This document shows, piece after piece, positions 7,177 through 33,861 of a stretch of DNA of 33,861 bases. Within the stretch, counting starts at the first letter, position 1. The number at the start of each line of letters is the position of its first letter. The translations under genes were made by a program, and so were the position numbers. Source of the DNA: Candidatus Bathyarchaeota archaeon (GTDB lineage: Archaea > Thermoproteota > Bathyarchaeia > Bathyarchaeales > DTEX01); NCBI GenBank assembly GCA_018396655.1, contig JAGTQF010000014.1, forward strand, positions 1 through 33,861. Direction: 5' to 3'. The notes under the pieces were generated by a model. It saw only the letters and a program-made list of their open reading frames with translations, was not told where the DNA came from and did no database searches.

Positions 7177-7877
7177 CAAACCTTAATCCCACCTAGCGGC
7201 AGGACTCTTAAGCCCAAGTGCGGGTTGACTTCAAGAATCACAGAGCTCTTTCTCTCACCGCCAGTTCCCCAGAGCTTGACGATTCTGAGGATTTTAACGT
7301 CCATGCCAGCAACCTTACCGTTCGAGATAACTAAGTAGACGTCTGATGATGCTTTAAGTTTCATAACTGACTGCTCCGGTAGGAACTGTGGGTGGAATGT
7401 TAAGACTATAGTCTTCCCGCTTGTTACGAGATTCTTCATGCGGGTTATGAATGTTAGGAAGACGTGGGGTGGCGTATTTACGGCTAAAACGCTTAGGCTA
7501 TCGATTACCGCCGCATCATAACGGCTTCGATTTATTTCTAGGAAGTTTCTTGCAACCCTAAAGAATAAAGATGAGAGGAACTTCGTCCATTTTCCACCTT
7601 CAACGTGGAGTGGAAAAACTAGGAGGTCACCGCTAGCATACTTTAGGAAGGCATCTAAGTTTATGGATTTCATCATCTTAAGATAGTCTTTTGAGGCTGT
7701 CTCGGTTGTTATGACGCAAACCTTTAAACCCTCCCTGAGCATCGAATATACTATTTGCTGTGTTAATACAGTCTTGCCAGCCCCAAACTCCCCCTCAATT
7801 GACGCTAGGCACGGATGAGGGAAACCCCCACCCAAACACCTATCTAAGTCTTGTATGCCAAGCGATATGACCTTCAT
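7176..7877 (-). CDS. arlH: Archaellum RecA/KaiC-like ATP-binding protein ArlH (FlaH)
   Basis: Peripheral motor protein of 233 residues that binds ATP and forms a ring with ArlI. Walker A is GEFGAGKT (residues 29-36) and Walker B is AAVIDSLS (about 122-129), both in a single RecA-like domain of KaiC type. The length matches ArlH (about 230), not full double-domain KaiC. The start is ATG 7877, overlapping the arlF stop as ATGA. Its stop overlaps the arlI start as TGATG, so G/F-H-I-J is a tightly coupled block. Confidence 0.94.
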   Translation of the reverse strand: MKVISLGIQDLDRCLGGGFPHPCLASIEGEFGAGKTVLTQQIVYSMLREGLKVCVITTETASKDYLKMMKSINLDAFLKYASGDLLVFPLHVEGGKWTKFLSSLFFRVARNFLEINRSRYDAAVIDSLSVLAVNTPPHVFLTFITRMKNLVTSGKTIVLTFHPQFLPEQSVMKLKASSDVYLVISNGKVAGMDVKILRIVKLWGTGGERKSSVILEVNPHLGLRVLPLGGIKV

Positions 7878-8389
7878 AATCTAACAGCCTCCCCAACAGC
7901 AGCAACACCATAATGGGAGGCGAAAACAACGATAACTGTTCCATTTAGGGGTATTTCGGGCGCCTCACTTGGTAAATGAACCTCTATCAGCGCCTCCTCA
8001 CTTGGATTTAAGCTTCTAAAAGAGTCCATGTTGATTGTGTGGTTTGTGCCCGCAATTCTAATTTCAAGAACTTCATAGTCCTCAATTATATAGGTTCTCA
8101 AGTAGACATTTCTGTAGCTGACTATAATAGTGTTCCAGTTATAGCCCTCCTCTCGAAGGAAGACAGGTTTCGAGCCAGAATTCCTCAGATAAAACCGTAT
8201 CTTTGAGGCTTCAACACTGCTTATGGTTAGGTCTATTTTTACGGCGCTAGCCCCGCTTTCTCTGAGAGCCATCTGTCTCAGGTATGCTAAGGTATTTATT
8301 GTGGATATCACTGTTGAAGCTGTTACGCCAGCGAACACTATTAGCCCTATAAGGATTATTGTTGAGGCAATAGTCACTGAGAAGCCCAG
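7874..8389 (-). CDS. arlF: Archaellum stator-like protein ArlF (FlaF), probable CTG start
   Basis: N-terminally anchored extracytoplasmic protein. One transmembrane helix (about residues 5-27, TIILIGLIVFAGV) is followed by a beta-rich domain with the phrase RFYLRNSGSKPVFL. In characterised archaea ArlF binds the S-layer and works with ArlG as the stator. The call rests on position between arlG and arlH and on this architecture; G and F could be swapped. The first conventional start is GTG 8377, but the strong SD GGGAGGTG (8397-8404) is 19 bases from it and only seven bases from an in-frame CTG at 8389. Starting there adds LGFS, which parallels the GFSIT start of the adjacent ArlG. The upstream in-frame stop is close, so no longer form exists. 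Confidence 0.78.
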   Translation of the reverse strand: MGFSVTIASTIILIGLIVFAGVTASTVISTINTLAYLRQMALRESGASAVKIDLTISSVEASKIRFYLRNSGSKPVFLREEGYNWNTIIVSYRNVYLRTYIIEDYEVLEIRIAGTNHTINMDSFRSLNPSEEALIEVHLPSEAPEIPLNGTVIVVFASHYGVAAVGEAVRL

Positions 8390-8396
8390 CTTATAG

Positions 8397-8404
8397 CACC
8401 TCCC
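8397..8404 (-). promoter_or_regulatory. Strong Shine-Dalgarno that decides the arlF start
   Basis: On the minus strand GGGAGGTG directly follows the arlG stop TAA. It is seven bases from CTG 8389 but 19 from GTG 8377. Confidence 0.7.
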
Positions 8405-8899
8405 TTATGGAGAGGCAAAAATGTAGCTGTCTGATAGACCCTTATAGAGGGCTAATTTAACCTCATATAGGTTGGCATTCAGCTCATTCTTTGGATAAAC
8501 TCTTATTACTGCTGTTTCCGCAACCTCCCATGCACCGTCACCATCAGAATCCTCAATGCTAAATTTTCCGCTTCCAACGCTGGCTTCCGGGCTATAAGTG
8601 TATAGTGTAGCCCTCTTGTATTCACCGAAGTAAACGTCTATTAGCCCGAAATTTGTTATTGGGAGCATGCCAGTATTCTTTGCATAAACTATGAAGTGTT
8701 TTGGGCTTGTCGTATCATTTACTGTTGCGTAAACTATGCTTACGCGCAGTTCAAACATGCTCCTCGCATCTGAGAGGCTCTGCATTATGCTGTTTTGGAG
8801 GGCTGTTCCACTATAGATGGCGTATGCTGAGAAGCTGCTTGCCAAAATTATCGATGATATAAGGATTATTATTTCGCTAAGGGTTATTGAGAAGCCCAC
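8405..8899 (-). CDS. arlG: Archaellum stator-like protein ArlG (FlaG)
   Basis: 164-residue protein with an N-terminal membrane helix (about residues 8-28, EIIILISSIILASSFSAYA) and an extracytoplasmic beta-sandwich-like domain. The phrase HFIVYAKNTGMLPITNFG is typical of ArlF/ArlG proteins, and DSDGDGAWEV looks like a calcium-binding loop. By analogy ArlG forms a filament capped by ArlF and linked to the S-layer. It starts at GTG 8899, inside the end of the upstream C/D/E-like gene (16-base overlap). Assignment as G, not F, follows the gene order known from Sulfolobus (G-F-H-I-J). Confidence 0.76.
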   Translation of the reverse strand: MGFSITLSEIIILISSIILASSFSAYAIYSGTALQNSIMQSLSDARSMFELRVSIVYATVNDTTSPKHFIVYAKNTGMLPITNFGLIDVYFGEYKRATLYTYSPEASVGSGKFSIEDSDGDGAWEVAETAVIRVYPKNELNANLYEVKLALYKGLSDSYIFASP

Positions 8900-9603
8900 C
8901 CCTTAGACCACACCCCATTAAATCGCCTACTCCTAAGAAAATTCTTTATAAGCTCGGATAGCTCGCTCTGGTCTATCTTCACGCCCATGATATTCGCAAT
9001 ATTATAGATGCTTAACGTGAAAATATCCTCAGATATCCCGTTCGTCTTAGCCCTCTTCACGGCGCTGGCTAAACTAGATATATAGGATGCTGAACCCCTC
9101 GGTATAAAACTGAAGAACTCAGAGTACTCACATATCTTCCTTATGCTATCTTCATCAAAACCTATATCAAGCATGGTATAAACCCACTCGATAAGCGCCA
9201 TAGTCCTCCTAAAGTCGAGCTTCACTGCCATAGGCGCAAGAAGCTCCCTCAAATCCTCCCTAAAGATTGGCTTGGGAAGAGGCTCCTCAGGTCTTTTACT
9301 CTCCTCCTTTTCTTGGGGGGCCATTTTTTGGGTTTGCTCGGATTTCTCCTCTTTCTCTGCGGCCATTTTCTCTAGGATGGGTTTTGCCTCATTTACCCTT
9401 GCCAATACTTCCTCGTCGGTTATTAGTTTTAGGAGGTTGAATGGGTTCTCAATCTCGTTTATCGTGGACCTTATGTCTATCAGCGCCCTCTTCAAATCTT
9501 CGACTGTGCTTGCTAACTCGCTAACCTGATTGACTGCGGACTTAATCTCCCTAATTTCCTTCTCAATCTCCTCAATCTTATCCTTACTCTCGCTCATCCC
9601 CAA
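8884..9603 (-). CDS. ArlC/D/E-like archaellum scaffold protein
   Basis: 239-residue soluble protein. Residues 1-50 are a predicted coiled coil (many E/K/I heptads). The ENPFNLL motif at about 52-58 is characteristic of FlaC/FlaD/FlaE proteins. A charged, proline-rich linker (about 75-110) leads to a C-terminal helical domain (about 115-230, with ALIEWVYTMLDIGFDEDSI). In Euryarchaeota, ArlC/D/E form a cytoplasmic ring linking the motor to the chemotaxis adaptor CheF. Crenarchaeota lack them and use ArlX instead. It lies between the archaellins and arlG, as C/D/E do. Whether it receives taxis signals is unknown, since no che gene is visible in this window. Confidence 0.72.
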   Translation of the reverse strand: MGMSESKDKIEEIEKEIREIKSAVNQVSELASTVEDLKRALIDIRSTINEIENPFNLLKLITDEEVLARVNEAKPILEKMAAEKEEKSEQTQKMAPQEKEESKRPEEPLPKPIFREDLRELLAPMAVKLDFRRTMALIEWVYTMLDIGFDEDSIRKICEYSEFFSFIPRGSASYISSLASAVKRAKTNGISEDIFTLSIYNIANIMGVKIDQSELSELIKNFLRSRRFNGVWSKGWASQ

Positions 9604-19155: not shown

Positions 19156-21000
19156 TTACTGTTTCCTCACCTTGTCCAGAATTTTATCGACATCTTCGAG
19201 TCCGAGTTCCTTAAGAACTGATGATTTTGGAATTCCCCTTTCATCCCAGCCAATAGCCTCGTAGTACTGCTTCCTCATGTCCTCAAATGTTTTCCTATCA
19301 GTGGTCTTACCTTTATATGGCCCTGAGGGAAGCGGCTCATAGAACCTTGGGGGATTATCATCATGTATCTCCGGCTTCCAGAATACGTCTGGTCCGCCTA
19401 AGAGGAGAACTGCCCTCTGTATATGCGCTATTCTTCGTCCAAGTACGCGGCACCAATCGGCATCTGTAAGGTCCCATCCCGTAACCGCCCTATAAAAGTC
19501 CCATATGAGAGGCGACCCGCACATGCTACACACAACCGCCGAATCGAAGAAAACCATTCTCATATCATTGTAGGCGTCGTAAACCCCTGAGGTGTGGTCA
19601 CCGCACTGCGGCGAGCATGCATAGCCGATTGGATTAAAATCTAACCCACTTCTAGTTCCATGCGCTCCTACCTCAACGCCCTTAACATGCACAGCGTATT
19701 TTGTGACGTCTACGCCCTTCATCTCGCTTATCTTTAGAGCCGCCCTATATGTTCCCTCGGCAAGTATGTCTCCTATACCCTCGCGCTTAACTATCATTCT
19801 CGCAAGCCTCTCGAAGGCCTCCACATCACCCCAATTTAACTCGAAGCCTAAATCCTCCTTAGTTAATATGCCTCTCTGATAGAGTTCGGCTGCGAAGGCA
19901 AGGGTGTTGCCGCCGTTTATGCCGGAGAACCCTAGATAGTCTATGAGCGCCGATAAATATATGCATTTATCCGGGTCAAATATTCCGAGGTTTGGTCCAA
20001 GGTAGGCTTGCATCTCATAATCCGGGTTATCTGTGATAGCTCCCTTATACGGTCCTGTCTTAATAACTGCTATCTTCATGCAGGCAACAGGACAGTTAAA
20101 GTCGCTCCAATACCTTTTAACCCAATATCTGAAGTCAAACTTAGGTCCGCCAAATCTTTTCTCATCATGCCATTCCTCCTGCCAATTCCTCACAGGCTCA
20201 GAGCTCTGCCTAGCACCAACCTCATATCCACCGTAACCAGTCCCCCAGCGTCTCAAGCGGTCCCTTTCAAGAAGCTGCCTCTCAACTTCCCGTAGGAGAA
20301 TCTTTACTGTTTCTGGGCTGGCAACGCTGGGCAACGGTTTCCTCCCCTTAACAACAATAGCCTTAAGCTTCTTTGAGCCCATAACCGCCCCATACCCACC
20401 GTAGCCAGCGGCGTGGCTTATCTTCTGCATCACCGCAGCCGTCCTAACCCTGTTTTCACCCGCCGGACCACAATATATTATCGCAGGCTCCTTAACCTTC
20501 TCAGCGCCGGGTCTTGCCCTCTTAAGCAGCTCAAGCCCCTCCTTAGTTAGGATTCTTATGGTTTCAGGGGCCTCCTTACCCCAAACATGCTCCGCGCTTC
20601 TAATCTCAGCGTTATCATCGGTTATAAATAGGTAGACGGGCTTCTCAGCCCTTCCAGTAACTATTACGCCGTCGTAGCCAGCACATTTAAGTTCATTCCC
20701 AAACTCGCCGCTTAGAGTCGACCCAATTATCCCATTTGATTGAGGCGATTTACCCGATATACATATACGGGAGCCCGGATATATGCCAGTTAAAGGCCCT
20801 GTTAGAACGAGAAATATATTTTCTGGTCCAAGCGGGTCGATCTCCTCCCATCTATTGCCGAGTCTATCCCAGAGAATCTTTGTGGCTAAACCTCTTCCTC
20901 CAACAAAATTTCTAAGGATATCGTCGCTGAATGTTACGTCCTTTACTCCCCCAGAGGAGAGATCTACCTCCAGAAATTTACCAGCGTAGCCTCTAACCAT
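19156..21000 (-). CDS. Tungsten-containing aldehyde ferredoxin oxidoreductase family protein
   Basis: 614-residue catalytic subunit of the AOR family, which oxidises aldehydes or related substrates with a tungsten bis-pterin cofactor and one iron-sulfur cluster. The N-terminal pterin-binding domain has NFVGGRGLATKIL (31-43) and GPLTGIYPGSR (about 68-78). The cluster motif normally reads Cx2Cx3C; here it is D300-x2-C303-x3-C307 (DFNCPVAC), so the first Cys is replaced by Asp. A fourth ligand is available in VVCSMCG (C491 or C494). The length matches characterised AORs (about 605-620). The ATG follows the ferredoxin stop directly, so electrons probably pass to that protein. The substrate cannot be deduced. 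Confidence 0.94.
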   Translation of the reverse strand: MVRGYAGKFLEVDLSSGGVKDVTFSDDILRNFVGGRGLATKILWDRLGNRWEEIDPLGPENIFLVLTGPLTGIYPGSRICISGKSPQSNGIIGSTLSGEFGNELKCAGYDGVIVTGRAEKPVYLFITDDNAEIRSAEHVWGKEAPETIRILTKEGLELLKRARPGAEKVKEPAIIYCGPAGENRVRTAAVMQKISHAAGYGGYGAVMGSKKLKAIVVKGRKPLPSVASPETVKILLREVERQLLERDRLRRWGTGYGGYEVGARQSSEPVRNWQEEWHDEKRFGGPKFDFRYWVKRYWSDFNCPVACMKIAVIKTGPYKGAITDNPDYEMQAYLGPNLGIFDPDKCIYLSALIDYLGFSGINGGNTLAFAAELYQRGILTKEDLGFELNWGDVEAFERLARMIVKREGIGDILAEGTYRAALKISEMKGVDVTKYAVHVKGVEVGAHGTRSGLDFNPIGYACSPQCGDHTSGVYDAYNDMRMVFFDSAVVCSMCGSPLIWDFYRAVTGWDLTDADWCRVLGRRIAHIQRAVLLLGGPDVFWKPEIHDDNPPRFYEPLPSGPYKGKTTDRKTFEDMRKQYYEAIGWDERGIPKSSVLKELGLEDVDKILDKVRKQ

Positions 21001-21552
21001 TTAAACCCACTCCTCTCCTTTCTCACCGTAAAGGTTTATTGCAATATCCTTAGTGATCTCTTCGGGAGGTTGGGCGAAGAGTTTTCTATTGTAGCTTCCC
21101 CATCCGGTTTTATCTTCCCTAACCACCCAGAGTGCATTGAATTTAGCCTCCTGACAGACCTTGACGCACTGCGGTTCTCCACTACAAAGGTCGCATATTA
21201 CCGCTTTCCCATCGCTGGGGTGGAGGAACGGAATGTTTCCGGGGCACTCGCGTATACATACGCCGCATCCAGTGCACTTTTCTCTATCAACTATGACCGC
21301 GCCTGTCCTCTCATCGACCGAGAGAGCCTTTACTGGGCATGCTGAGACACATGGGTAATCATGGCACTGGGAACAGAAGTGTGGGATTTCAATGCCTGGC
21401 ACTAGCATAAAAACCCTTATTCTTGAGGCTTCAGGCCATATCCACCCCTCATGGAATAGCGAGCAGGCGATTTCACATCTTCTGCATCCAGTACACTTCA
21501 AGTAGTCTCTGGCAATCCAGAGAATGGTCTCTCTTCTTCCAGACATAGCCAT
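21001..21552 (-). CDS. Four-cluster ferredoxin subunit of the AOR module
   Basis: Polyferredoxin of about 183 residues, electron partner of the adjacent AOR. Four groups of four cysteines fit four [4Fe-4S] clusters: CTGCRRCEIAC, CSQCHDYPCVSAC, CTGCGVCIREC and CDLCSGEPQCVKVC. The layout matches HycB/DmsB-type subunits. No transmembrane segment or Tat signal is seen, so it is likely cytoplasmic. The C-terminal 40 residues (GSYNRKLFAQPPEEI) lack cysteines. Possible starts are ATG 21552, ATG 21546 (preceded by GGTGAT) and TTG 21558; they change only the first few residues. It heads the module ferredoxin, AOR, MoaD-like. Confidence 0.92.
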   Translation of the reverse strand: MAMSGRRETILWIARDYLKCTGCRRCEIACSLFHEGWIWPEASRIRVFMLVPGIEIPHFCSQCHDYPCVSACPVKALSVDERTGAVIVDREKCTGCGVCIRECPGNIPFLHPSDGKAVICDLCSGEPQCVKVCQEAKFNALWVVREDKTGWGSYNRKLFAQPPEEITKDIAINLYGEKGEEWV

Positions 21553-21622
21553 CACCAAACAACTATCAGAGATAATTTACATGCTCTTAAAGTTATCTAA
21601 TGATGGCATTTTGCCAATGGGC

Positions 21623-21832: not shown

Positions 21833-22795
21833 ATGGAAGAGATTGTTTGCGATAGAATATTCAAGGACTATAAAGGTAAGACAATCGTTAGGGCTCTAGA
21901 TAACATAGACCTTAAGGTTTCGAGGGGCGAGTTTTTTGGTCTCCTCGGTCCGAATGGCGCTGGTAAGACAACTCTCGTGAGGATTCTTGTGACGCTCCTG
22001 AAGGCTTCTGGTGGATGTGCCTGGGTTGGCGGATATGACGTGAACAAGGATGAGAAGAAGATTCGTGAGATAATAGGTTATGCCGGGCAGGATTCTGAGC
22101 GCTCAGCCTACTTTAGGCTCTCCGTTAGAGAAAACCTCCTTTACTTTGCCCATGCACTTAGAGGCGTCCCTAAGAAGATAGCTAAAGATAGAATCGAGTA
22201 TATAGCATCAGGGATAGGATTCGAAAATAAACTAGACAGACACTTCGTATCTCTCTCAGGAGGAGAAAAGCAAGCGGTAATAGTCATGAGAGCCATACTT
22301 CATAACCCAGAAGTATGCTTTTTAGATGAGCCATCAAAGAGCTTAGACCCGATAACTGCACGTAGGGTTAGGCGCTTCTTAAAAGACTATGCTAGAGAGA
22401 ATGGGATCACTATCTGTTTAACAACACATAACATGCTCGAGGTTGAGGAAGTATGTGACAGAATAGCTTTCATAAATCATGGTAAGCTAATTTTTGTAGG
22501 GACTCCACCTGAATTTAAGAGACGAGCATCTATAAGAGAGATTATAGAAATTAGCACTAATAAGCTTGAGAGTGAGTTAAAGTTAAAGCTTCTTAAGGCG
22601 CATGGAGTAATAAATGTTACTTACCAAGGCAATATCACCAAGTTGTATTGTGAAGATGCATTCAACACGCTTCCAGAAGTTCTAAACGTTATGAGGGAGA
22701 TAGGGTTAAAGGCTCCGGTGAGGATTGCCGAACCCTCGCTTGAGGATGCGTTTGTCTTCTTTGTTAATGGAGGTGAGAGCAATGGAGAATATTGA
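21833..22795 (+). CDS. ABC transporter ATP-binding protein (ABC-2 type)
   Basis: Cytoplasmic ATPase subunit of 320 residues. Walker A is GPNGAGKT (39-46), the Q loop Q86 (YAGQDSE), the signature LSGGEKQ (141-147), Walker B VCFLDEPS (161-168) and the H-loop H199 (LTTHN). The C-terminal 90 residues form the accessory domain common in drug/polysaccharide exporters of the CcmA/DrrA type (GRLxFVGTP-like INHGKLIFVGTPPEF). The start is ATG 21833, with GGAG nine bases upstream. The TATA-like element at 21803 would place the transcript start almost at the ATG. It pairs with the overlapping permease; the direction is probably export, the substrate unknown. Confidence 0.94.
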   Translation: MEEIVCDRIFKDYKGKTIVRALDNIDLKVSRGEFFGLLGPNGAGKTTLVRILVTLLKASGGCAWVGGYDVNKDEKKIREIIGYAGQDSERSAYFRLSVRENLLYFAHALRGVPKKIAKDRIEYIASGIGFENKLDRHFVSLSGGEKQAVIVMRAILHNPEVCFLDEPSKSLDPITARRVRRFLKDYARENGITICLTTHNMLEVEEVCDRIAFINHGKLIFVGTPPEFKRRASIREIIEISTNKLESELKLKLLKAHGVINVTYQGNITKLYCEDAFNTLPEVLNVMREIGLKAPVRIAEPSLEDAFVFFVNGGESNGEY

Positions 22796-23609
22796 GAGTA
22801 TTACTAGTCCATTAAGGATTTTCTATATGGCTGTTTGGCGCAACCTCCTAACTTTAACACGCTATAAAGTGAACTTCCTCCTTTCGGTCGTAACGAGCGT
22901 ATTGTGGGCTGCAGGCATGCTTCTCTTCTCGCTTGCCTTTGACTCTTCGATGCTTGGGAGAACTGTTGGAACAACAAATTATGTTGCCTTCATTATTTTT
23001 GGGATAAGTTTCCAAAGCTGGCAGGGAACTGCCCTTTGGGGTGCATCAGGCATGCTTCAAGGCGAACTTAGCACTGGACAAATAGACTACACTTTTACAT
23101 GTCCATTCTCACGTTATCAGTATATTATAAGTAATATTGCAGCCCTAGCAATTCAAGACTCCTTATTCTTCATTCCAATGTTCTCTGTTGGTCTATGGCT
23201 GACAAGCGCAACACTAACAATTCACGGTCTCCTCCTGGGCTTAGCTTCGATAGTCATTTCCGTAGCTGCGTTAGTTCAGTTCGGGGTTATCTTTGCCGCA
23301 CTTACGCTAAGATATAGGCAGGTGACAGCGGTATTCAGCTTCTTTAATTTCATTATTCAAATGCTCTCAGGAATGTTCATCCCACTACAAATTCTCCCAG
23401 TTCCGCTACAAATTATCGGGTTCAGTATCCCGGTAACCTTTGGTATGGACCTGCTGAGACATTATGTGATGGGAACATTTACTATATTCAATCCAATGTA
23501 CGAATGGATTGCGCTTATAGTTCAGCTGGCCATTTTCAGTTTAGTAGCCAAACTAGTGGTATCTTACCTTGAGGGTAAGGCTAAAGAAGAAGGACTACAC
23601 TACATTTAG
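22782..23609 (+). CDS. ABC-2 type transporter permease
   Basis: Membrane partner of the preceding ATPase, 275 residues with about six transmembrane helices. It has the ABC-2 layout: an N-terminal cytoplasmic amphipathic segment (RNLLTLTRYKVN), paired helices, and the conserved region around FNFIIQMLSGMFIPLQILP before the last helices. ATG 22782 is preceded by GGAGGTGAG at the ideal distance and lies inside the ATPase gene (14-base overlap), so the two are translationally coupled. The open frame back to 22725 is not part of the gene. Confidence 0.93.
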   Translation: MENIESITSPLRIFYMAVWRNLLTLTRYKVNFLLSVVTSVLWAAGMLLFSLAFDSSMLGRTVGTTNYVAFIIFGISFQSWQGTALWGASGMLQGELSTGQIDYTFTCPFSRYQYIISNIAALAIQDSLFFIPMFSVGLWLTSATLTIHGLLLGLASIVISVAALVQFGVIFAALTLRYRQVTAVFSFFNFIIQMLSGMFIPLQILPVPLQIIGFSIPVTFGMDLLRHYVMGTFTIFNPMYEWIALIVQLAIFSLVAKLVVSYLEGKAKEEGLHYI

Positions 23610-25007: not shown

Positions 25008-26234
25008 TTGGTTAAATATGGTCTGATGAAAATAAAAAGTCGATTGCACCCAATAGCATTATTCATTTACATAATGTTTTTCGTCATTTTACCACTTGGT
25101 GGAAGATATTGCTTTTCCTTATTTGGCGAGGATAGGGATGAAATTAAATTTTACGCGTTCAGCGACCCCTATTGTTTTGGTTGTATTGAGATCTTAAACT
25201 CTTTACCTAGTGATCCTGTTGTATATGATGTTAGAGTGAATAGTGACCGCTACATTAAGATAATCGGGATTACAAATTATACCGCCTTAAGTCTCCCTTT
25301 GATTGGTGTTATCAAAAATGGTAATTTAACGCTGATTGCATCGGGATATTTTTCACCTAATGAGTGGAAAAAGATTTTAGGCGTTAAGTATTGTGGAGTG
25401 CCCATTTACATATCAGGGAGCACAGAGCCAGTTAAAGTAATTAGAGATGAGAGTCTGATACACTCTCTCAATAACATTTTTGTTGGGAGTGAATATGAGA
25501 GCGATGGAGAAATTTTTTCTTCCGCGATACCAATAACTAATATTATAATAGCTGCTCTGCTTGACTCTTTTAATCCATGCGAGATTTACACATTAATTGT
25601 TTTGCTTTCTTTGGCTCTTTCCAAGGCTGAAAGAAGAGATGTTCTAAAAGTTGGCTTAGCGTTTTCTTTGGGTATCTTCATATCTTACTTTCTCTTGGGC
25701 TTTGGATTTATTAATTTTCTTGAGTTCATTATTGGCGCGCGTTATATTGTTGAAATTGTAGGAGTATCCGTAAGCTTACGAACAATCATAAACTTAATCT
25801 TTGGTTTTCTTGGGCTCTCTTTAGGATTGAGAGAAGCAATTAATAGCATGTTTAAAAAAAGTATCAAGCGTCTCCCAAGGGCGCTTTCTACAAAGTTATC
25901 TGCCCATTTAAGAAGAGCATTCTCCAACCCCTTAACCTCGCTTGTAATTGGTGTTTTAAGCGGCTTATTGTTGAGCCCATGTACATCTGGGCCCTATTTT
26001 ATAGCATTAGCTTTCATAACTAATATACAATATTCTTTTCTGAGGTTATTGTTGCTTTTCATTTATAACATGATCTTCATACTGCCAACAGTTGTTATAA
26101 CATTAGGTATTTACCTAAAATTTTCCACAAAGTCTATAAAAATTTTCTTACAGAATTATCAGAGAATCCTTAATCTGGTAATCGGGTTGCTGCTGATTTT
26201 TTTAAGCACTCACCTTTTAATAGTTCAGACATAA
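25008..26234 (+). CDS. Thioredoxin-like / CcdA-like fused membrane thiol-redox protein
   Basis: 408 residues. After an N-terminal anchor (about 15-32) comes an extracytoplasmic thioredoxin-like region with CFGC (C56, C59) and a likely cis-Pro (SLPLIG, P98). The second half is a membrane domain like CcdA/DsbD, with its two hallmark cysteines in FNPCE (C191) and LSPCTSGP (C325). CcdA proteins carry electrons across the membrane to thiol proteins outside. Here donor core and acceptor-type domain are on one chain, in the reverse order to DsbD's C-terminal thioredoxin. TTG 25008 follows GGAGAAGGGG. No cytochrome c genes are nearby, so extracytoplasmic disulfide handling is the broader role. Confidence 0.82.
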   Translation: MVKYGLMKIKSRLHPIALFIYIMFFVILPLGGRYCFSLFGEDRDEIKFYAFSDPYCFGCIEILNSLPSDPVVYDVRVNSDRYIKIIGITNYTALSLPLIGVIKNGNLTLIASGYFSPNEWKKILGVKYCGVPIYISGSTEPVKVIRDESLIHSLNNIFVGSEYESDGEIFSSAIPITNIIIAALLDSFNPCEIYTLIVLLSLALSKAERRDVLKVGLAFSLGIFISYFLLGFGFINFLEFIIGARYIVEIVGVSVSLRTIINLIFGFLGLSLGLREAINSMFKKSIKRLPRALSTKLSAHLRRAFSNPLTSLVIGVLSGLLLSPCTSGPYFIALAFITNIQYSFLRLLLLFIYNMIFILPTVVITLGIYLKFSTKSIKIFLQNYQRILNLVIGLLLIFLSTHLLIVQT

Positions 26235-26357: not shown

Positions 26358-28400
26358 ATGGAAAAATTGAAAGCGAGAATATCGCTGATTGAAATGATGT
26401 CTTTAGTGCTATTGAGCTGGGGCATTTTTGTCATGAGTTATCTCATTAGAGCTTTTTCAGGGGCAAAATACTGGGTTGTTACTGGCAGCATTTTTCCTTA
26501 TATCTACATTCTGCTCTTGCTGGGCTTCCTAGGAAAGCGTGGCCTTAGAATCAGTAAAGAATTCGCAGTTTCTCTAGTATTTGTCTTGGCGTTATTTACG
26601 GGGAAAGCCTTTCTTTTCGCAGGTTCTCCGGATGTAAACTTCCTAAATATCGTGGCTGGAACATATAGTAGCGTTATTGTCTCTTGGTTTTATCCGACAT
26701 GGGCGAGGGAATATGTAAGCAAGTTCCTTCCTTCATGGCTTGTTCCTCAGGTTGAGTCTGCAGTATTAGCCTATTATCAAGGAGGTGCTAATCCAGACTG
26801 GTCCGTCTTTGCAGCTCCAATAATCTCGTGGACACTTGTACTAATATCTGTGATTTTTGTAACATGGCCGATGATATTTTTAATTCTAGGCCCACATTGG
26901 TTTGAGATTGAGAGACTTCAATTTCCCATGAGCGTACCAGCCATATACATCACAAATGAAGTTTTTCCATCGGAAGAAGAGAATAATTGGCTCTCAATAA
27001 TCGATTTCAAAAGGGCAAGAGTAAAGGCCTTCTGGGCAGCATTTACAATAGGATTAATACTAAATTTGCCATTTATTCTGTCCCAAGTTTTACCAGAAGT
27101 TCCGCTCGGGGGAATAATAGGTGGAGGTTATGGAACATATCCGGTGTCGCTTTATCAGTATGTCAGAGACTGGTTGCCATCCTCCCATATGGACGGACAA
27201 TTAGTGCTTTATCTTGCTTTGCTCTATGCACTTCTACCTCTAGACCTCTCAATTTCAATCGCCATAACAGGTATGTTCTTTGGCCTTGTTTACAGGCCGC
27301 TAGTTGTGAGAATGGGCATAGTTTCAGGTGTTGATCCAGGACAAGTTTGGCCAATTCCGCATCTGGAGTTTCGTGTTGGCGCCTATATTGGACTTGGCTT
27401 AATAGCACTATGGGTTACTAGAGAGAGATGGATTAAAGCATTCAAATCTCTTAAAAAAGATTTTGATGTTGATGGTTTCTCGATGAAAATTGGTCTTTTA
27501 CTCATGTTGGCCGGAACAATACTTCTTGTAGGAATCTTCACAGTAGCTGGCGGAAATTTAGGCATGATGCTCATCTGGTTTATTATCTTTACAATAATAA
27601 ATATTGGATGCGCCTACATTTGGGCTAATTCAATATGGCTTGGTGGAGACTGCCATGGTTATATGAGTTGGCGGCTAGGCCACTACATAGGATCTTCAAT
27701 TAATGTATGGTCCGCTGCGGCTCCTCAAGAAAATAGCGCATTAGCCATTTATGGACTTGCATGTGGAACAATGGGCACGTGCGCTGGTGCCTATCAATCG
27801 AATAGCTTTATCGCGCAACCGCTTGTTTCAATCGCGTACGGTTATGCAAAAGCAACAGGGTCGGATATGAGAAAAGTGCTAATATATACGCTAATAACAT
27901 GTGTAACATTAGTTCCTTTTGCGCTAGTGGTTAACACTTACGTAAACTGTCATGTTGGAATATTAAATACCAGCGAGTCCTCAATGGACGTTTATTATTG
28001 GGGTGTTATGTCAATGACCTTTGATACTGGCGTTAGAAGGTTAACTTATGCTACAGGTAGATTGCCCTTCGGAGAATATTGGGGTGCCACGATTATATCG
28101 GCTGCTATTGTAATTGTAGTCTACTGGTTACGTTCAATATTCCCATGGTTCTTTCTGCATCCAGTAGGCATAGCTATCGGGTTTGCTGGATCTGGAGGCT
28201 GGAACCATTGGTTAAACATGGTAATTGGCATATCAACCAGAATTTTGCTCAATAAAACTTTAGGCCCAAAAAGAACAATGGATTATCTCGTTCCAATTCT
28301 TTCAGGACTTGCAGTTGGTCTTGGCTCACTATATCTGATAGTTGGGCTATTTGTCGCGTCCACAATTTCTATTCCAAACCTACTAATGCTCTGGAAATGA
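26358..28400 (+). CDS. OPT-like polytopic membrane transporter (DUF6785/DUF6784 type)
   Basis: 680-residue integral membrane protein with about 14-16 hydrophobic segments. The phrase HWFEIERLQFPMSVP near residue 180 and the end block HPVGIAIGFAGSGGWNHWL with GPKRTMDYLVP match, from memory, the DUF6785/DUF6784 proteins that resemble oligopeptide (OPT) transporters. OPT relatives import peptides or metal chelates with protons. The central part has cysteine-containing helices (LACGTMGTCAGAYQSN) that could line a path. ATG 26358 is preceded by GGGGGGGATGATTT. It is the first gene of a three-gene set with a second paralogue and a giant surface protein, so a peptide-related substrate is plausible but unproven. 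Confidence 0.75.
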   Translation: MEKLKARISLIEMMSLVLLSWGIFVMSYLIRAFSGAKYWVVTGSIFPYIYILLLLGFLGKRGLRISKEFAVSLVFVLALFTGKAFLFAGSPDVNFLNIVAGTYSSVIVSWFYPTWAREYVSKFLPSWLVPQVESAVLAYYQGGANPDWSVFAAPIISWTLVLISVIFVTWPMIFLILGPHWFEIERLQFPMSVPAIYITNEVFPSEEENNWLSIIDFKRARVKAFWAAFTIGLILNLPFILSQVLPEVPLGGIIGGGYGTYPVSLYQYVRDWLPSSHMDGQLVLYLALLYALLPLDLSISIAITGMFFGLVYRPLVVRMGIVSGVDPGQVWPIPHLEFRVGAYIGLGLIALWVTRERWIKAFKSLKKDFDVDGFSMKIGLLLMLAGTILLVGIFTVAGGNLGMMLIWFIIFTIINIGCAYIWANSIWLGGDCHGYMSWRLGHYIGSSINVWSAAAPQENSALAIYGLACGTMGTCAGAYQSNSFIAQPLVSIAYGYAKATGSDMRKVLIYTLITCVTLVPFALVVNTYVNCHVGILNTSESSMDVYYWGVMSMTFDTGVRRLTYATGRLPFGEYWGATIISAAIVIVVYWLRSIFPWFFLHPVGIAIGFAGSGGWNHWLNMVIGISTRILLNKTLGPKRTMDYLVPILSGLAVGLGSLYLIVGLFVASTISIPNLLMLWK

Positions 28401-28526
28401 AAATGAACTTAATATTCCTTAATTATTTTTAGTCAAAAACTTTACGTTAATCTCAGCCATTAAATTTGGTGAGCTAATTATTCCTTAATAAAATGTAATT
28501 TTAAGACTTACGTTTTTATCGTAAAA

Positions 28527-28537
28527 TTTATATATTA
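28527..28537 (+). promoter_or_regulatory. TATA box of the second OPT-like gene
   Basis: TTTATATATTA lies 27-37 bases before ATG 28564, implying a leaderless mRNA. Directly upstream, TTACG (28508-28512) and CGTAA (28520-28524) form an inverted repeat, and TTACG recurs at 28442-28446. Confidence 0.5.
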
Positions 28538-28563
28538 TTCTTTCTATTTCTCATAAAATCATT

Positions 28564-30474
28564 ATGCTAAATAAATTAAATCTTAAATCGAGTTTAACTT
28601 GGCGAACATGGCTTGCCATGATAGCCTCTACTTTTCTCTTTATTCCAATAAATATTTATTCTTACTTTATAACGGGAGTTATTCAAGGTTCTATTGCCAT
28701 TTTCTTCATAACATTAGTGTTTTCAGAAATAGCACGTATTACAGGATCTAGTTTTTCAAGACAAGAGGTTCTACTTTTATATTATGCAGCAGCATGGGGG
28801 AGTTCCGCGCTGCCAATCTATTACAACATAATTTATCGCTCTTTCTTAGTTAACTCACCACTATCAAAAACTTATGTTATAGGCGATAAACCTCTCATTA
28901 AGTATATTCCAGCATGGTTAGCTCCGCCACCAGAATCTTATACTCTTCGCTCGCTTTTCCAGCCTGTTTTTGTTGTTCCGCTACTCGTATGGTTTATATG
29001 GAGCGTTATCCTCTTAGCATTAACTATATCTCTTTCGCTTTTATGCGCCAATATTTATGTTGAGAGACTTGATTATCCTTTTCCCTATGTTGTGGTGGAA
29101 ACGTCATTAGCAACTTTTATAGCTGAGCGTCCAAAAGGATATATGAAATACTTTATTCCATCTTTTGTTGTTGGAATTATTTTTGGCACATTAGCGTATC
29201 TTCCATTTTCATTTGAAAGTAGATTAATACCTATTCCTTACATTGACCTAACACCAATTACAGAAGAACTCTTGCCTGGGGCGGTGATAGGCGTAACTAC
29301 CATACTTTCGTCCTATTTTGGAGGTTTAATCGTGCCCTTTAACCACGCGATATTAATGCTTCTCTCGTCCATTATAGTGTGGGTTGTGCTTAATTCTCTC
29401 TTTATCACTAGATTTTCAACATTGTTTCCCGAATGGGCTAAAGAATACGCGAAAGGAATGGGCTTAATAGCGGTTTATAATAGATCGTATCTTAGAGTAT
29501 GGTTTGCCCCTCAAATAGGCTTTATGCTAGCTTCCATAATCTTTCTCCTAATCTTCAAAATTAGACATGTTCTTACAAGCGTTTTTAGAGAGATACTTTT
29601 TCCATCAAGTGTTAAGCGGAGAGTGATAGCTGGATTACCATCTTTACGTTTGGTTCTCTTCTTATGGCTTTTATTTGCTTTTGTCTCAGCAATTTTCTTT
29701 CATATTCTTGTTCCAGAAGTAAACATACTTATACCGTTGGCTTACGTCTTCTTAGTTGGATTTTTTGTTGCAATACTTGGAACAGCCGTTCGTGGTGAAA
29801 CAGGTTTTTCCATTATAGGTCTTCCAGGATTAACCTGGGCTACTCTTATGTATTTTTCGCCATATCAGGGGTATGCTGGTTTCGTTTTTCAGCCGCCTAC
29901 TATAGATGGTGATGGCCCGCCTAGTTTCTCACAACAAGTTAAAGCTGCTTCAATTACTGGTATAAAACCTAGAGACCTGTTAGTGATATGGATTGTTGGA
30001 TATTTTTTGTCTCAGTTATCAGGCTTAATAGCATTGGATTTCTTCTGGAGAATTGCTCCTATACCATCTTCAGCTTATCCATTTACAGTCTATAATTCCT
30101 TAAATACAGCACACTTAGAAGCAATGATCGTTTCTAGGCAAATTGATGTGTCATTGTCTAAAATCTTCCTTCCATCCATCATTCTCCTTTTTATTCTTTC
30201 AGCTGGCACATTTATATCAAAATTATCGGCCATATCTTTTCCATTTCTCGGTTTAATAGCTGGTTTATACCTCCCGCCATATTCCGTCATATCGCTATTT
30301 ACAGGTTCTTTAATAAGCAAATATATAGCACCCAGATTTTTAGGCGGATTTGAAAACTGGAGAAAAATAATAGGCTACGTAACATCTGGCGAACTTTCCG
30401 GAGAGGGCTTAATATTGATGCTTAGTGTAACAATTTCATTAATGCGCAGGTCAGCGTGGTTATGGCCATGGTAG
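28564..30474 (+). CDS. Second OPT-like polytopic membrane transporter
   Basis: 636-residue membrane protein related to its upstream neighbour. It has the equivalent motif VERLDYPFPYVVVE near residue 170 and an OPT-like C-terminus (GLYLPPYSVISLFTGSLIS, APRFLGG, SGELSGEGLILML, ending in MRRSAWLWPW). The long loop around VPEVNILIPL and the segment FQPPTIDGDGPPSFSQQ are likely outside or substrate-facing. The two proteins differ clearly in sequence, so this is an old duplication, and they may form a heteromer. Codon use is markedly AT-rich. Its end overlaps the start of the giant downstream gene, indicating co-expression. Confidence 0.74.
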   Translation: MLNKLNLKSSLTWRTWLAMIASTFLFIPINIYSYFITGVIQGSIAIFFITLVFSEIARITGSSFSRQEVLLLYYAAAWGSSALPIYYNIIYRSFLVNSPLSKTYVIGDKPLIKYIPAWLAPPPESYTLRSLFQPVFVVPLLVWFIWSVILLALTISLSLLCANIYVERLDYPFPYVVVETSLATFIAERPKGYMKYFIPSFVVGIIFGTLAYLPFSFESRLIPIPYIDLTPITEELLPGAVIGVTTILSSYFGGLIVPFNHAILMLLSSIIVWVVLNSLFITRFSTLFPEWAKEYAKGMGLIAVYNRSYLRVWFAPQIGFMLASIIFLLIFKIRHVLTSVFREILFPSSVKRRVIAGLPSLRLVLFLWLLFAFVSAIFFHILVPEVNILIPLAYVFLVGFFVAILGTAVRGETGFSIIGLPGLTWATLMYFSPYQGYAGFVFQPPTIDGDGPPSFSQQVKAASITGIKPRDLLVIWIVGYFLSQLSGLIALDFFWRIAPIPSSAYPFTVYNSLNTAHLEAMIVSRQIDVSLSKIFLPSIILLFILSAGTFISKLSAISFPFLGLIAGLYLPPYSVISLFTGSLISKYIAPRFLGGFENWRKIIGYVTSGELSGEGLILMLSVTISLMRRSAWLWPW

Positions 30475-33400
30475 AAATCACAGCGAAATCTAATAAGATC
30501 AATTATAAAATCGTCCGGTTAATCAGTGGAATCTTGCTAATAATATTGCTTCTTGATACAAAAGTTTGCGTAAACTCTTTTTTCCAGAGTTTTTCTTTCT
30601 CCCATCTTTTTCATGTAGAAACAATAATAAATAGTTTAGATGTTGCGAGAATAATGGCTCATGTAAATCTATTCTCATCATTCGGATCAAGAGTTACAGG
30701 ATATGAGGGTTGCGATCTAGCGGCGAAGTATATAGAAAGTTTCTTTAGAAACTTAAGTCTTATTGTCATGATAAATGAATATTCAATTCCAATACCATTG
30801 GATCGCGGCGGTTTAGTAAAAATAGATCACGGATCACACTTAAATTCAAGCTACAAAATTTATCAATTATGGCCTAATGGCGGCCTATCATGTTTTTCGG
30901 GAACGATTTCCGGCAGAATTGTGTATGGCGGAAAAGGGTCGCTTGAAGAATTAAATGGGCTCGATATTAAAGATTCAATTGTTCTTCTGGATTTTAATTC
31001 CGGAAAGAACTGGTTGAATGCTGCTAAACTTGGAGCAAAAGCTGTAATTTTTGTTGAGCCTTCCTATACCACAAAGTATGAAGCATTAAGCAAGAGCTGC
31101 TTAGGCCCGTTCAGTTTCCCACGGTTTTACGTTACAAGAGACGTTGGAATTATTCTCAAAGATATAGCCGACTCAAATGGTGTACTATCTATTAGCGCTA
31201 GTATGAAATGGGAAGAGGTAAAAGCCAGAAATATTATTGGAATCTTACCTGGAGAGAGTGCTGAGGATGTTCTCATAATATCCGCTCACTATGATTCTTG
31301 GAGTATTGTTCCAGCGATTTCTCGTGCATCAGAAGATTCCCTAGGAATCTCAATACTCTTAGAAATTGCCCGGCTTCTCGCCAATAATAGACATAAGCAA
31401 ACAATATGGTTTGTTGCTTATTCTGGACACTGGCAAGGAAACGCTGGAGCTGTAAATTTTGTTGAAAGTATCCTTTTAAACTCGACGAGAAAAGAAAAAT
31501 ACTGGCTTCAAATAGGAATCGATATTTCAAGCGAATCATACTTGATGGATTGTTTATACGTGAGTTCCATATATGGATCTATGGAGCCCAGCACTGGGTG
31601 GAGTGTTGGTACTAGAGGAACAATTTTCGCCTTAACGTCAACCTATATTGCGCGTTTAGGGTGGATCAAGAGACATTTTGAGAGTCTATTAAATGTCCCT
31701 GTTGAAAGCATGAATGTAAAAGAATATTTTCCAGCGGGTGTCACGAAACTAATTGACCTAATTAATTTTGGGCTAACGTATGAATCGAGATTCGGCTCTC
31801 AAATAGACTTTTACATGCTGGATACTGAACCATCATTATTAGCATCATGTATGGCTATAACTTTAAGAACGCAATATGCGAGAAGAATGACATGGCTGAC
31901 CCCTCTAGATCAAAGTATCAGATGGAATCATATATTGCCTCAGGCGGTCGTGATTGCAGCATTAATATACGGTCTTGCAAATGAAGATTTCGAGCAAAAT
32001 CCACCGTACGACTATAGTATTGCTTCTCCTCGAAGATGGAATACGCTGGGCACAGGACTTAGTGTTTTTGGCTTTTCAACTTTAAGAGGAAAAACTGTTG
32101 AATTTAGTGATTCTACAGGATGGTATGAACCACTTTCAAGGGCTCTTGTAAGGCTTCAAATATATGAAAGTCAGGCTGAAAACGCATGGCCTTTTGCTTT
32201 TAGATACACATTTAGTGATGAAAATGGAAGTTTCGTTTTTCATGGATTAGTCCCATATACTACTTGGCATACGGATGCTTGGAAATTTGATGATAATGGA
32301 GAGATAACGCATGTAGTAGACCGGGGATTTTATGGTACTGCAGAGGGAGTGGTTGGTGGGCTTCGAACAGATATTTATCCCATAAGCGTAAACTCCAGCG
32401 CGATTATACCTCTCTTTAAGTGCAGGCAGGTAACCTTGTTTGATATTATAAATAATGTTGAGACAGTAGGGTTGATTATACGGGATTACAGAAACCCAAA
32501 TCATAATTACCTGAATTCTTTTATGGTTTCTCTGGGCTCTTTTGCGGCTCTTGGCGGTGGGAGAGGAGCTTATGGTTTCGGTCTTGGTATTTTTTCAGTA
32601 TATTCAAAGTCTCCTCCAGTTTTCCTCGGATCCTATGTAGCTGCTGATGGAGTGATAAGTATATTTGTTAGGGAAGGAGAGAGACTGATCTTTACTTTTA
32701 ATCCTAATCCTCAGAAATACTCCTGGCCCACGATAGTTTTAACCAATAGCTCATTGGATAATCCTGAAGGAAATGGTTTTCTGATATCTAATAGCTTGGC
32801 GATTCCAGCAACTCTGTTTCAGGCAGCTCTGGATATGTATAGGATGGTCTCTCATAGATATAACAATCTTGCAAAATTTAATATACGAATAAGATTTGCG
32901 GAGCAGATGCTTGAAAAGGCTCTGTCGTATTTAGAAGATGCGAATAAATCATACTTAAAAAAGAATTATTCCGCTCTTTACGCATGTTCTTACTTATCAA
33001 TTCAATGCTCTTATAACGCTTATGCTTTCGTTGTCATGCCCTCTTATCGCGAAACTTCGTTTTCACTCAGCTTCTTCTCTATCTTAATAATAGCCTTTTC
33101 TATTTTTCTAGAGAAACTTGTTTTTGGGTGGAGATCCATTAAGCGCTTTACCGTAATATTTCTCTTAATGATCACGTTCTTCACCACATACGCGTTTGTT
33201 CACCCAGCTCTTTTAATAATGATGAATTCTATTATGGCGGTTGTAAGCGTTGGCATTCTTCTTCTTCTTTTCTTAGTTATCTCGATATTTACGTTTGAAA
33301 TACGTGGTCTTTTAAGATCCATAAGCGTAAAATTGCTTGGTGAGCATACTTTTGAAAAAGCTGGAGCGATACCAATATATGTGCATGCCATAAGCTATTC

Positions 33401-33861
33401 GATTGAAAGTATGCGTAAGAGACCGCTAATTACTGTTCTGACAATGATCTCCATGGTGCTCTTAGCTGCTTCATCGATTGCTTTTGCATCAGTATCATAT
33501 GATTACATAATAGTTAAAGGACCAGCGTACACAGGAAATCTGCCATATAATGGTATACTTATAAAAGTTTTATACGGTTTTCCGCCGGAAAGAAGGGGGG
33601 CTATCTTTGACATGAATACAGTAACATATTTGAGATATGTGGTTGGGGGTGAATATGAGGTGTCGCCGAGAGTTTGGATGTACCCGCAACCACAAGGGTT
33701 AAGACCGATCGCTGAGGTTATATCAGAAAGGGGTGTTGTTTATCGTTCTTCAATAGTATTTTTAGGTTTATCTCAAACGGAACTTCATAAAATATTTGAA
33801 GGTTACGTTCAAGGCCCAGCTGTGTTTATGAGTGGGCATGAATGTATTTTGCCAAGAGAAA
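30468..33861 (+). CDS. Giant surface protein: PA-like, degenerate M28 peptidase-like, beta domain and permease-like membrane region (3' end beyond window)
   Basis: I translated this frame by hand: no stop from ATG 30468 (or 30462) to the window end, at least 1131 codons. An N-terminal membrane segment (about 15-33) precedes an extracytoplasmic region. A PA-like domain spans about 140-200 (KDSIVLLDF, AAKLGAKAVIFVEP). An M28-like domain starts near 250: AHYDSW (H274, D276), EDSLG (289-293), SGHWQG (319-324), IGIDIS (D352). In M28 enzymes the third and fourth motifs read DNxSG and EE; here Glu289 and His321-Trp322 take those places, so peptidase activity is doubtful. About 545-620 looks like a carboxypeptidase-regulatory beta domain (SDENGSFVFHGLVP). 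Membrane helices follow at about 868-942 and 986-1008; the last (RKRPLITVLTMISMV) resembles an FtsX/MacB permease start. Its 5' end overlaps the second OPT-like gene. Confidence 0.78.
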   Translation, partial: MVEITAKSNKINYKIVRLISGILLIILLLDTKVCVNSFFQSFSFSHLFHVETIINSLDVARIMAHVNLFSSFGSRVTGYEGCDLAAKYIESFFRNLSLIVMINEYSIPIPLDRGGLVKIDHGSHLNSSYKIYQLWPNGGLSCFSGTISGRIVYGGKGSLEELNGLDIKDSIVLLDFNSGKNWLNAAKLGAKAVIFVEPSYTTKYEALSKSCLGPFSFPRFYVTRDVGIILKDIADSNGVLSISASMKWEEVKARNIIGILPGESAEDVLIISAHYDSWSIVPAISRASEDSLGISILLEIARLLANNRHKQTIWFVAYSGHWQGNAGAVNFVESILLNSTRKEKYWLQIGIDISSESYLMDCLYVSSIYGSMEPSTGWSVGTRGTIFALTSTYIARLGWIKRHFESLLNVPVESMNVKEYFPAGVTKLIDLINFGLTYESRFGSQIDFYMLDTEPSLLASCMAITLRTQYARRMTWLTPLDQSIRWNHILPQAVVIAALIYGLANEDFEQNPPYDYSIASPRRWNTLGTGLSVFGFSTLRGKTVEFSDSTGWYEPLSRALVRLQIYESQAENAWPFAFRYTFSDENGSFVFHGLVPYTTWHTDAWKFDDNGEITHVVDRGFYGTAEGVVGGLRTDIYPISVNSSAIIPLFKCRQVTLFDIINNVETVGLIIRDYRNPNHNYLNSFMVSLGSFAALGGGRGAYGFGLGIFSVYSKSPPVFLGSYVAADGVISIFVREGERLIFTFNPNPQKYSWPTIVLTNSSLDNPEGNGFLISNSLAIPATLFQAALDMYRMVSHRYNNLAKFNIRIRFAEQMLEKALSYLEDANKSYLKKNYSALYACSYLSIQCSYNAYAFVVMPSYRETSFSLSFFSILIIAFSIFLEKLVFGWRSIKRFTVIFLLMITFFTTYAFVHPALLIMMNSIMAVVSVGILLLLFLVISIFTFEIRGLLRSISVKLLGEHTFEKAGAIPIYVHAISYSIESMRKRPLITVLTMISMVLLAASSIAFASVSYDYIIVKGPAYTGNLPYNGILIKVLYGFPPERRGAIFDMNTVTYLRYVVGGEYEVSPRVWMYPQPQGLRPIAEVISERGVVYRSSIVFLGLSQTELHKIFEGYVQGPAVFMSGHECILPRE

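Follow-up and report, generated by a model that had tools for sequence, protein, structure and literature searches.

The locus and its host genome

The window analyzed here is a whole contig of 33,861 bp (G000:C6) from the draft genome of a hot-spring, Bathyarchaeia-type archaeon (1.32 Mb in 48 contigs, estimated to be 94% complete), and it ends in three neighboring plus-strand genes. Gene A (26358..28400, 680 aa) encodes an OPT-superfamily membrane protein (DUF6785/DUF6784), gene B (28564..30474, 636 aa) encodes a second OPT-fold membrane protein that is homologous to A, and gene C (30456..33860) encodes a giant, putative pseudo-M28/FtsX protein, of which only the 5′ 1135 codons (with a GTG start) precede the cut made by the contig end. 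The end of B and the start of C share 19 bases. A sequence-only reading of the window had described three plus-strand neighbors, the last two overlapping, and open reading frames (ORFs) were found at exactly these positions. Given that the window is the entire contig, gene C cannot be extended in this assembly.

Upstream of A, on the same strand, is a gene (25008..26234) for a DsbD-like membrane protein with an N-terminal thioredoxin-like CxxC (CFGC), and its match to DsbD_TM (E = 6.2e-6) is just below the cut-off. The ortholog in genome G011 (L208:11535-12755, 406 aa; DsbD_TM 1e-8) is likewise upstream of A. A possible role for this protein is as a redox accessory of the window's copy of the trio only. 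Elsewhere in the window, a minus-strand cluster (3932-9603) that includes a type II/IV secretion ATPase (T2SSE) and a KaiC-type ATPase probably represents archaellum genes. Based on translations, an aldehyde ferredoxin oxidoreductase-like gene adjoins a gene for a ferredoxin-type 4Fe-4S protein (19156-21558), and a pair of genes for an ABC-2 type transporter (21833-23609) lies upstream of the trio.

A pair of OPT-like proteins

Gene A matches Pfam DUF6785 (E = 1.7e-19; 70 bits, with a cut-off of 25) and, below the cut-off, DUF6784 (2.9e-5). One of its paralogues (in L055) passes the threshold for the Pfam OPT family PF03169 (E = 7.6e-8; 31.9 bits, cut-off 25.8). Gene B matched no Pfam family in a single-sequence search. 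However, when the B family profile was compared with the PDB, the sole match at E ≤ 1 was 7wsr (E = 3.7e-9), and Foldseek matched the predicted model of B (pLDDT 90.7) to 7wst (TM 0.65/0.69, E = 4e-10), with all other targets insignificant. Both entries are barley YS1, an iron-phytosiderophore transporter of the OPT/YSL family; the predicted fold of B is thus an OPT fold. Comparison of the A family profile with that of B gave an alignment over nearly the full length of both (hhalign: 100%, E = 2e-40, ~595 columns). Considering the A–B profile match, the profile and fold matches of B to YS1, and the OPT match of the A paralogue, both A and B belong to the OPT superfamily, as distant relatives of each other. 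An early HMM iteration lumped A with B because they are homologous, and separate profiles were used afterwards.

Functionally, the OPT superfamily is characterised by proton-coupled uptake of a peptide or metal chelate. B resembles the YSL branch (barley YS1) in fold and profile, and the A family is tied to the superfamily via PF03169 and DUF6785. The proteins described here differ in that they are a conserved, nonidentical pair that goes with a giant FtsX protein and, in archaeal genomes, with glycan enzymes, whereas the known substrates of the OPT/YSL proteins are peptides or metal chelates and, to our knowledge, not sugars.

A giant pseudo-peptidase/permease protein

The protein encoded by the window's gene C matches Pfam Peptidase_M28 (E = 5.5e-11) and, weakly, PA (0.033), and an NCBIfam search yielded weak aminopeptidase matches only. 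The extracellular PA + M28-fold domain (30600..31985, residues 49-510) is supported by these Pfam matches and by profile and Foldseek matches to 2ek8. Specifically, positions 47-354 of the C family profile align to PA + M28 aminopeptidases (2ek8, E = 7e-33), and the model of the ectodomain retrieves 2ek8 (E = 7e-21) and also the transferrin receptor. The profile additionally matches the transferrin receptor, nicalin, MacB, and LolC/E. Following the ectodomain are beta domains (32064..32741, residues 537-762; predicted strands), a transmembrane bundle (32967..33338, residues 838-961; predicted helices and ortholog hydropathy), and the start of an FtsX/MacB unit (33366..33860), of which the first transmembrane helix and the beginning of the core domain are present, with the rest beyond the contig. 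The same succession is apparent in the structural model, which has the PA/M28 ectodomain, the beta domains, a helical stretch, the transmembrane bundle, and the beginning of the FtsX unit.

A complete ortholog (1530 aa, 56% identical) occurs in G011 (L059:8990-13582), and contains M28, MacB_PCD, and FtsX (E = 4.7e-11) domains, the MacB/FtsX permease being C-terminal. MacB_PCD and FtsX were found in a paralogue too, and the family profile matches MacB (5lil) with E = 2.9e-19. Judging from the domains of the ortholog and paralogue, C is an FtsX/MacB-type ABC permease, and in the window's copy the FtsX end is past the contig boundary.

The two M28 catalytic-site glutamates (the catalytic Glu and the neighboring Glu ligand) are replaced by His-Trp in the window (31428..31433), and Glu occurs at neither position in 83 of 83 aligned copies of C. 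In most cases the first is now His and the second Trp, Tyr, Phe, His, or Asn. Of the metal ligands, the first His is retained in 33 of the 83 copies, including that of the window; the last His is replaced by Ser/Thr or other residues, and the other metal ligands are variable. Because the active-site Glu and last His have been lost, we read the ectodomain of C as a pseudo-peptidase binding domain. Comparable M28 pseudo-enzymes (transferrin receptor, nicalin, nicastrin) share the PA + M28 fold, the lost catalytic residues, and a membrane-anchored ectodomain, but in C the domain is fused to an ABC permease unit and occurs in prokaryotes.

These results bear out the sequence-only reading of the proteins. 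Two different DUF6785/6784-type (OPT-like) membrane proteins had been proposed, which is supported for A by Pfam and for B by profile and predicted fold, although B has no Pfam match. The giant protein with PA-like, M28-like, and beta domains was recovered by Pfam, the family profile, and the model. Its description as permease-like is borne out by the MacB_PCD and FtsX domains of the complete ortholog, whereas within the window that part of the protein is only begun.

Conservation, linkage, and co-inheritance of the trio

The window's genome has five C-type loci. A and B adjoin C in four of them (contigs C3, C6, C7, and C11), and at the fifth (C14) A is ~10 kb away. B was detected in 20 of 41 relatives, as was C (20/41). 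In GTDB genomes, the window protein by itself returned no match, and the C family profile found 132 relatives, 80 of which were examined further. In all, 109 C genes were examined, most with B and many with A adjoining, and given this number, as well as the five C-type loci in one genome, the trio is not a chance arrangement.

According to depositor labels, archaea that carry C are Thermofilaceae, Brockarchaeota, Bathyarchaeota, other Thermoproteota, and Hodarchaeota, and the bacteria are Armatimonadota, Latescibacterota, Planctomycetota, Omnitrophota, Hydrogenedentes, KSB1, and Gemmatimonadetes (these genomes are MAGs, so assignments to a single phylum may contain binning errors). Where C has flanks of at least 5 kb on both sides, B is nearby in 43 of 47 loci (13/13 in the relatives and 30/34 in the wider set) and A in 33 of 47 (11/13 and 22/34, respectively). 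A was not seen in Armatimonadota clusters. Gene order and orientation differ among loci, and A is sometimes kilobases off or divergent; overlap or near-overlap of B and C is frequent.

Importantly, the A, B, and C trees are congruent (Mantel distance correlations, r = 0.81-0.85, p = 0.001), and for four copies in the window's genome, the nearest A, B, and C each come from one and the same G011 locus. Thus, the three genes are inherited together. Linkage in many lineages, both archaeal and bacterial, is the outcome that the sequence-only reading had named in advance as support for a system, and the earlier proposal of a surface system made up of an OPT-like pair and a giant anchored protein gains support from its conservation. 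The author of that proposal also knew of no described system with these three parts. We found no description of the combination in the open-access literature (subscription papers were mostly outside the search); all of the parts belong to known families, and it is apparently their combination that is undescribed.

In one relative, gene B has decayed and contains several stop codons (G010:C53:24670-25272), representing loss of the module. In another genome, three trio-type loci (L069-L071) occur within ~40 kb (G002:C6:68000-114000). Between them are repeated 480-aa proteins, one of which was scanned and has no Pfam match.

A candidate shared engine

In Armatimonadota and one Hodarchaeota MAG (L149), the cluster extends to genes for a LolD/MacB-type ATPase and a small FtsX permease (200-280 aa, without the core domain), here referred to as the engine. 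In the window's genome, contig C19 carries the ATPases closest to that of the Hodarchaeota cluster, which served as the query (67% and 57% identity), and contig C12 carries the small FtsX. The engine is single-copy in this genome, and it is unlinked to the five trios. Two ATPases and the small FtsX are clustered together in G011 and G015. Links to the trio occur in G020, in which the ATPase gene is immediately followed by A and C in the same orientation (L213), and in G003, in which ~4 kb separates the small FtsX from a trio (L073).

Among the 41 relatives, 20 of the 21 genomes that have the trio also have the ATPase, versus two of 20 others (Fisher 1.7e-8, ignoring phylogeny); for the small FtsX, the counts are 15 of 21 versus two of 20 (9e-5, again ignoring phylogeny). 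One of the trio genomes, G013, was counted as such through B, and a C fragment was later seen there. The engine also occurs in trio genomes of two other families (f3, f5), and G004, from the same genus as the window's host but trio-less, is without it. The correspondence is imperfect, as the engine was not found in the trio-bearing G008, and the nearly complete, same-genus G005 has ATPases and small FtsX (C8, C23), yet no detectable B or C. Overall, based on this pattern of occurrence, the ATPase and small FtsX appear to belong with the trio as a shared engine, and apparently one engine is common to the five trios of the window's genome, a sharing that we infer only from gene numbers. The sequence-only reading missed both the identity of C as an FtsX/MacB-type ABC permease and the ATPase and small FtsX that appear to go with it.

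Two other candidates for the engine were considered and rejected. The ABC transporter within the window (21833-23609) is an ABC-2 type pair with only distant similarity to the ATPase of the trio clusters (96 bits, as against >290), and a MacB-like pair on contig C20 has its own full permease and a lower score.

The combination resembles type VII ABC systems (MacB, LolCDE, FtsEX, BceAB) in the MacB_PCD + FtsX of C, the candidate LolD/MacB-like ATPase that is linked to some trios, and the putative small FtsX partner. However, C adds a PA/M28-fold ectodomain and an extra transmembrane bundle, OPT-fold proteins accompany it, and the putative partner FtsX is without the core domain. ECF transporters are similar in that one ATPase/permease engine serves several substrate modules encoded elsewhere, as is apparently the case here, although the proteins are unrelated and the sharing is here deduced from gene numbers alone.

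The two engine-type ATPases on contig C19 flank an aldehyde ferredoxin oxidoreductase-like gene (L200:5522-9436 in G000, from translation), and a 633-aa ORF has the same position between the ATPases of the G011 counterpart (L209:3899-8647 on G011:C8). We also noted a second kind of giant FtsX protein (~1000-1120 aa) that has no recognised M28 domain and no adjoining ATPase, and that occurs several times per genome (in G000 on C7, L055:274-3273; C23, L203:5533 and L204:7198; and C48, L207:2813; in G011, L208:3461-6511). Some of these adjoin trios or glycan enzymes, and the engine may serve them as well.

Gene neighborhoods and the likely substrate

Proteins encoded beside trios include pectate lyase (PL1) with a PKD domain, oligogalacturonate lyase (PL22), GH28, GH106, GH30, GH42, GH51 arabinofuranosidase, GH31, GH2, GH57, and GH130, as well as a heparinase/alginate-lyase-like protein and sugar-type oxidoreductases. 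Neighbors were hand-picked for scanning, so the share of glycan enzymes is not an unbiased rate. No carbohydrate enzyme occurs among the scanned neighbors of the window's copy; such neighbors, an arabinofuranosidase and a pectate lyase-PKD-PQQ protein, were seen only in G011, upstream of the ortholog. Of ~17 PL1/PL22/GH28 genes in the 41 genomes, seven are near a trio, with ~1 expected from a rough, hand-made genome-fraction estimate, and these seven are not independent owing to clustering within G008. In bacterial loci, glycan enzymes are mostly absent among the proteins scanned, so the substrate may be broader or may differ among loci.

Because many archaeal copies of the trio adjoin glycan enzymes, we consider that the substrate is more likely an oligosaccharide (pieces of a plant-type polysaccharide, e.g., pectin) than a peptide. 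In the clustering of glycan enzymes with a binding and uptake apparatus, and in the several divergent copies per genome, the loci are reminiscent of SusCD/polysaccharide utilisation loci, although the parts are unrelated and no TonB-type receptor was seen in trio clusters.

A proposed oligosaccharide importer and its alternatives

The best explanation, to which we assign a probability of about 0.5, is that A, B, and C together make up a single membrane system for the capture and import of oligosaccharides derived from polysaccharides of plant or algal type, with a shared motor. C would be binding protein and permease in one chain, with the inactive PA/M28 ectodomain and beta domains holding the ligand or positioning the complex outside the cell, and the FtsX/MacB part coupling to a cytoplasmic ATPase. 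The LolD/MacB-type ATPases would hydrolyse ATP and act on a putative heterodimer of C and the small FtsX. The resulting motion of the ectodomain may load or gate the A/B pair, which would provide the path across the membrane, and one engine, encoded away from the five trios, could drive all five in the window's genome. More tentatively, and with clearly less confidence than an even bet, we suggest that this is a new class of composite importer in archaea and bacteria, in which a mechanotransmission-type ABC motor drives or gates an OPT-fold heteropair via a pseudo-peptidase ectodomain, one motor serving many glycan-specific modules.

The uptake of polysaccharide-breakdown products by uncultured hot-spring archaea is largely unknown. 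If the proposal is correct, it would supply a function for DUF6785/6784, add sugar-linked members to the OPT fold, and connect two transporter superfamilies between which no cooperation is known. The proposed system is directly testable.

The import reading is weakened by the usual role of MacB-type complexes, which is export or force transmission and not import, and by the known cargo of OPT proteins, which is not sugars. Also counting against it are the unlinked engine of the window's genome, the exceptions G005 and G008, the lack of A in the Armatimonadota clusters, and the lack or scarcity of glycan enzymes among the neighbors scanned at the window's copy and at bacterial loci. The main rival is that the same complex serves to export or assemble a glycoconjugate, glycolipid, or lipoprotein of the cell surface by extraction as in LolCDE/MacB, one component leaving through A/B. 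We regard this as a serious, if clearly less probable, option. An FtsX/MacB unit with a LolD-type ATPase is typical of extraction or efflux machines, and the bacterial loci scanned are mostly without sugar hydrolases. Against it, the genes beside archaeal trios are not biosynthetic but encode degradative enzymes of secreted type (PL22, GHs, and pectate lyase with PKD and PQQ), and several divergent copies per genome are better suited to substrate-specific uptake.

It is rather unlikely that the trio is a sensor or regulatory complex (as in BceAB-like flux sensing) or a system for surface binding of, or adhesion to, polysaccharide, with no bulk uptake. Type VII ABC proteins can work by mechanotransmission without transport, and a large ectodomain with PA, M28-like, and beta parts is suited to binding, but the retention of two full OPT-fold proteins with C across domains of life implies a transport path. 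Equally out of favor, and judged improbable, is the suggestion of the sequence-only reading that a peptide-like substrate is bound or processed outside the cell and transported by the OPT-like pair. The family names invite it (OPT for oligopeptide transporter, M28 for aminopeptidase), as do the predicted OPT fold of B, the M28 fold of C, and an M14 carboxypeptidase that adjoins the trio at one locus (L082). It is disfavored by the absence of the catalytic Glu pair from every aligned copy of C, with the other metal ligands variable, and by the polysaccharide-degrading enzymes that make up many of the neighbors scanned at archaeal loci.

Finally, the three membrane genes could be linked merely through common regulation in glycan-utilisation loci, as their varied order and orientation and the sometimes distant or divergent A might suggest, but we consider this very improbable given that particular versions of A, B, and C are co-inherited, B and C frequently overlap or nearly do so, and the association is conserved over many phyla.
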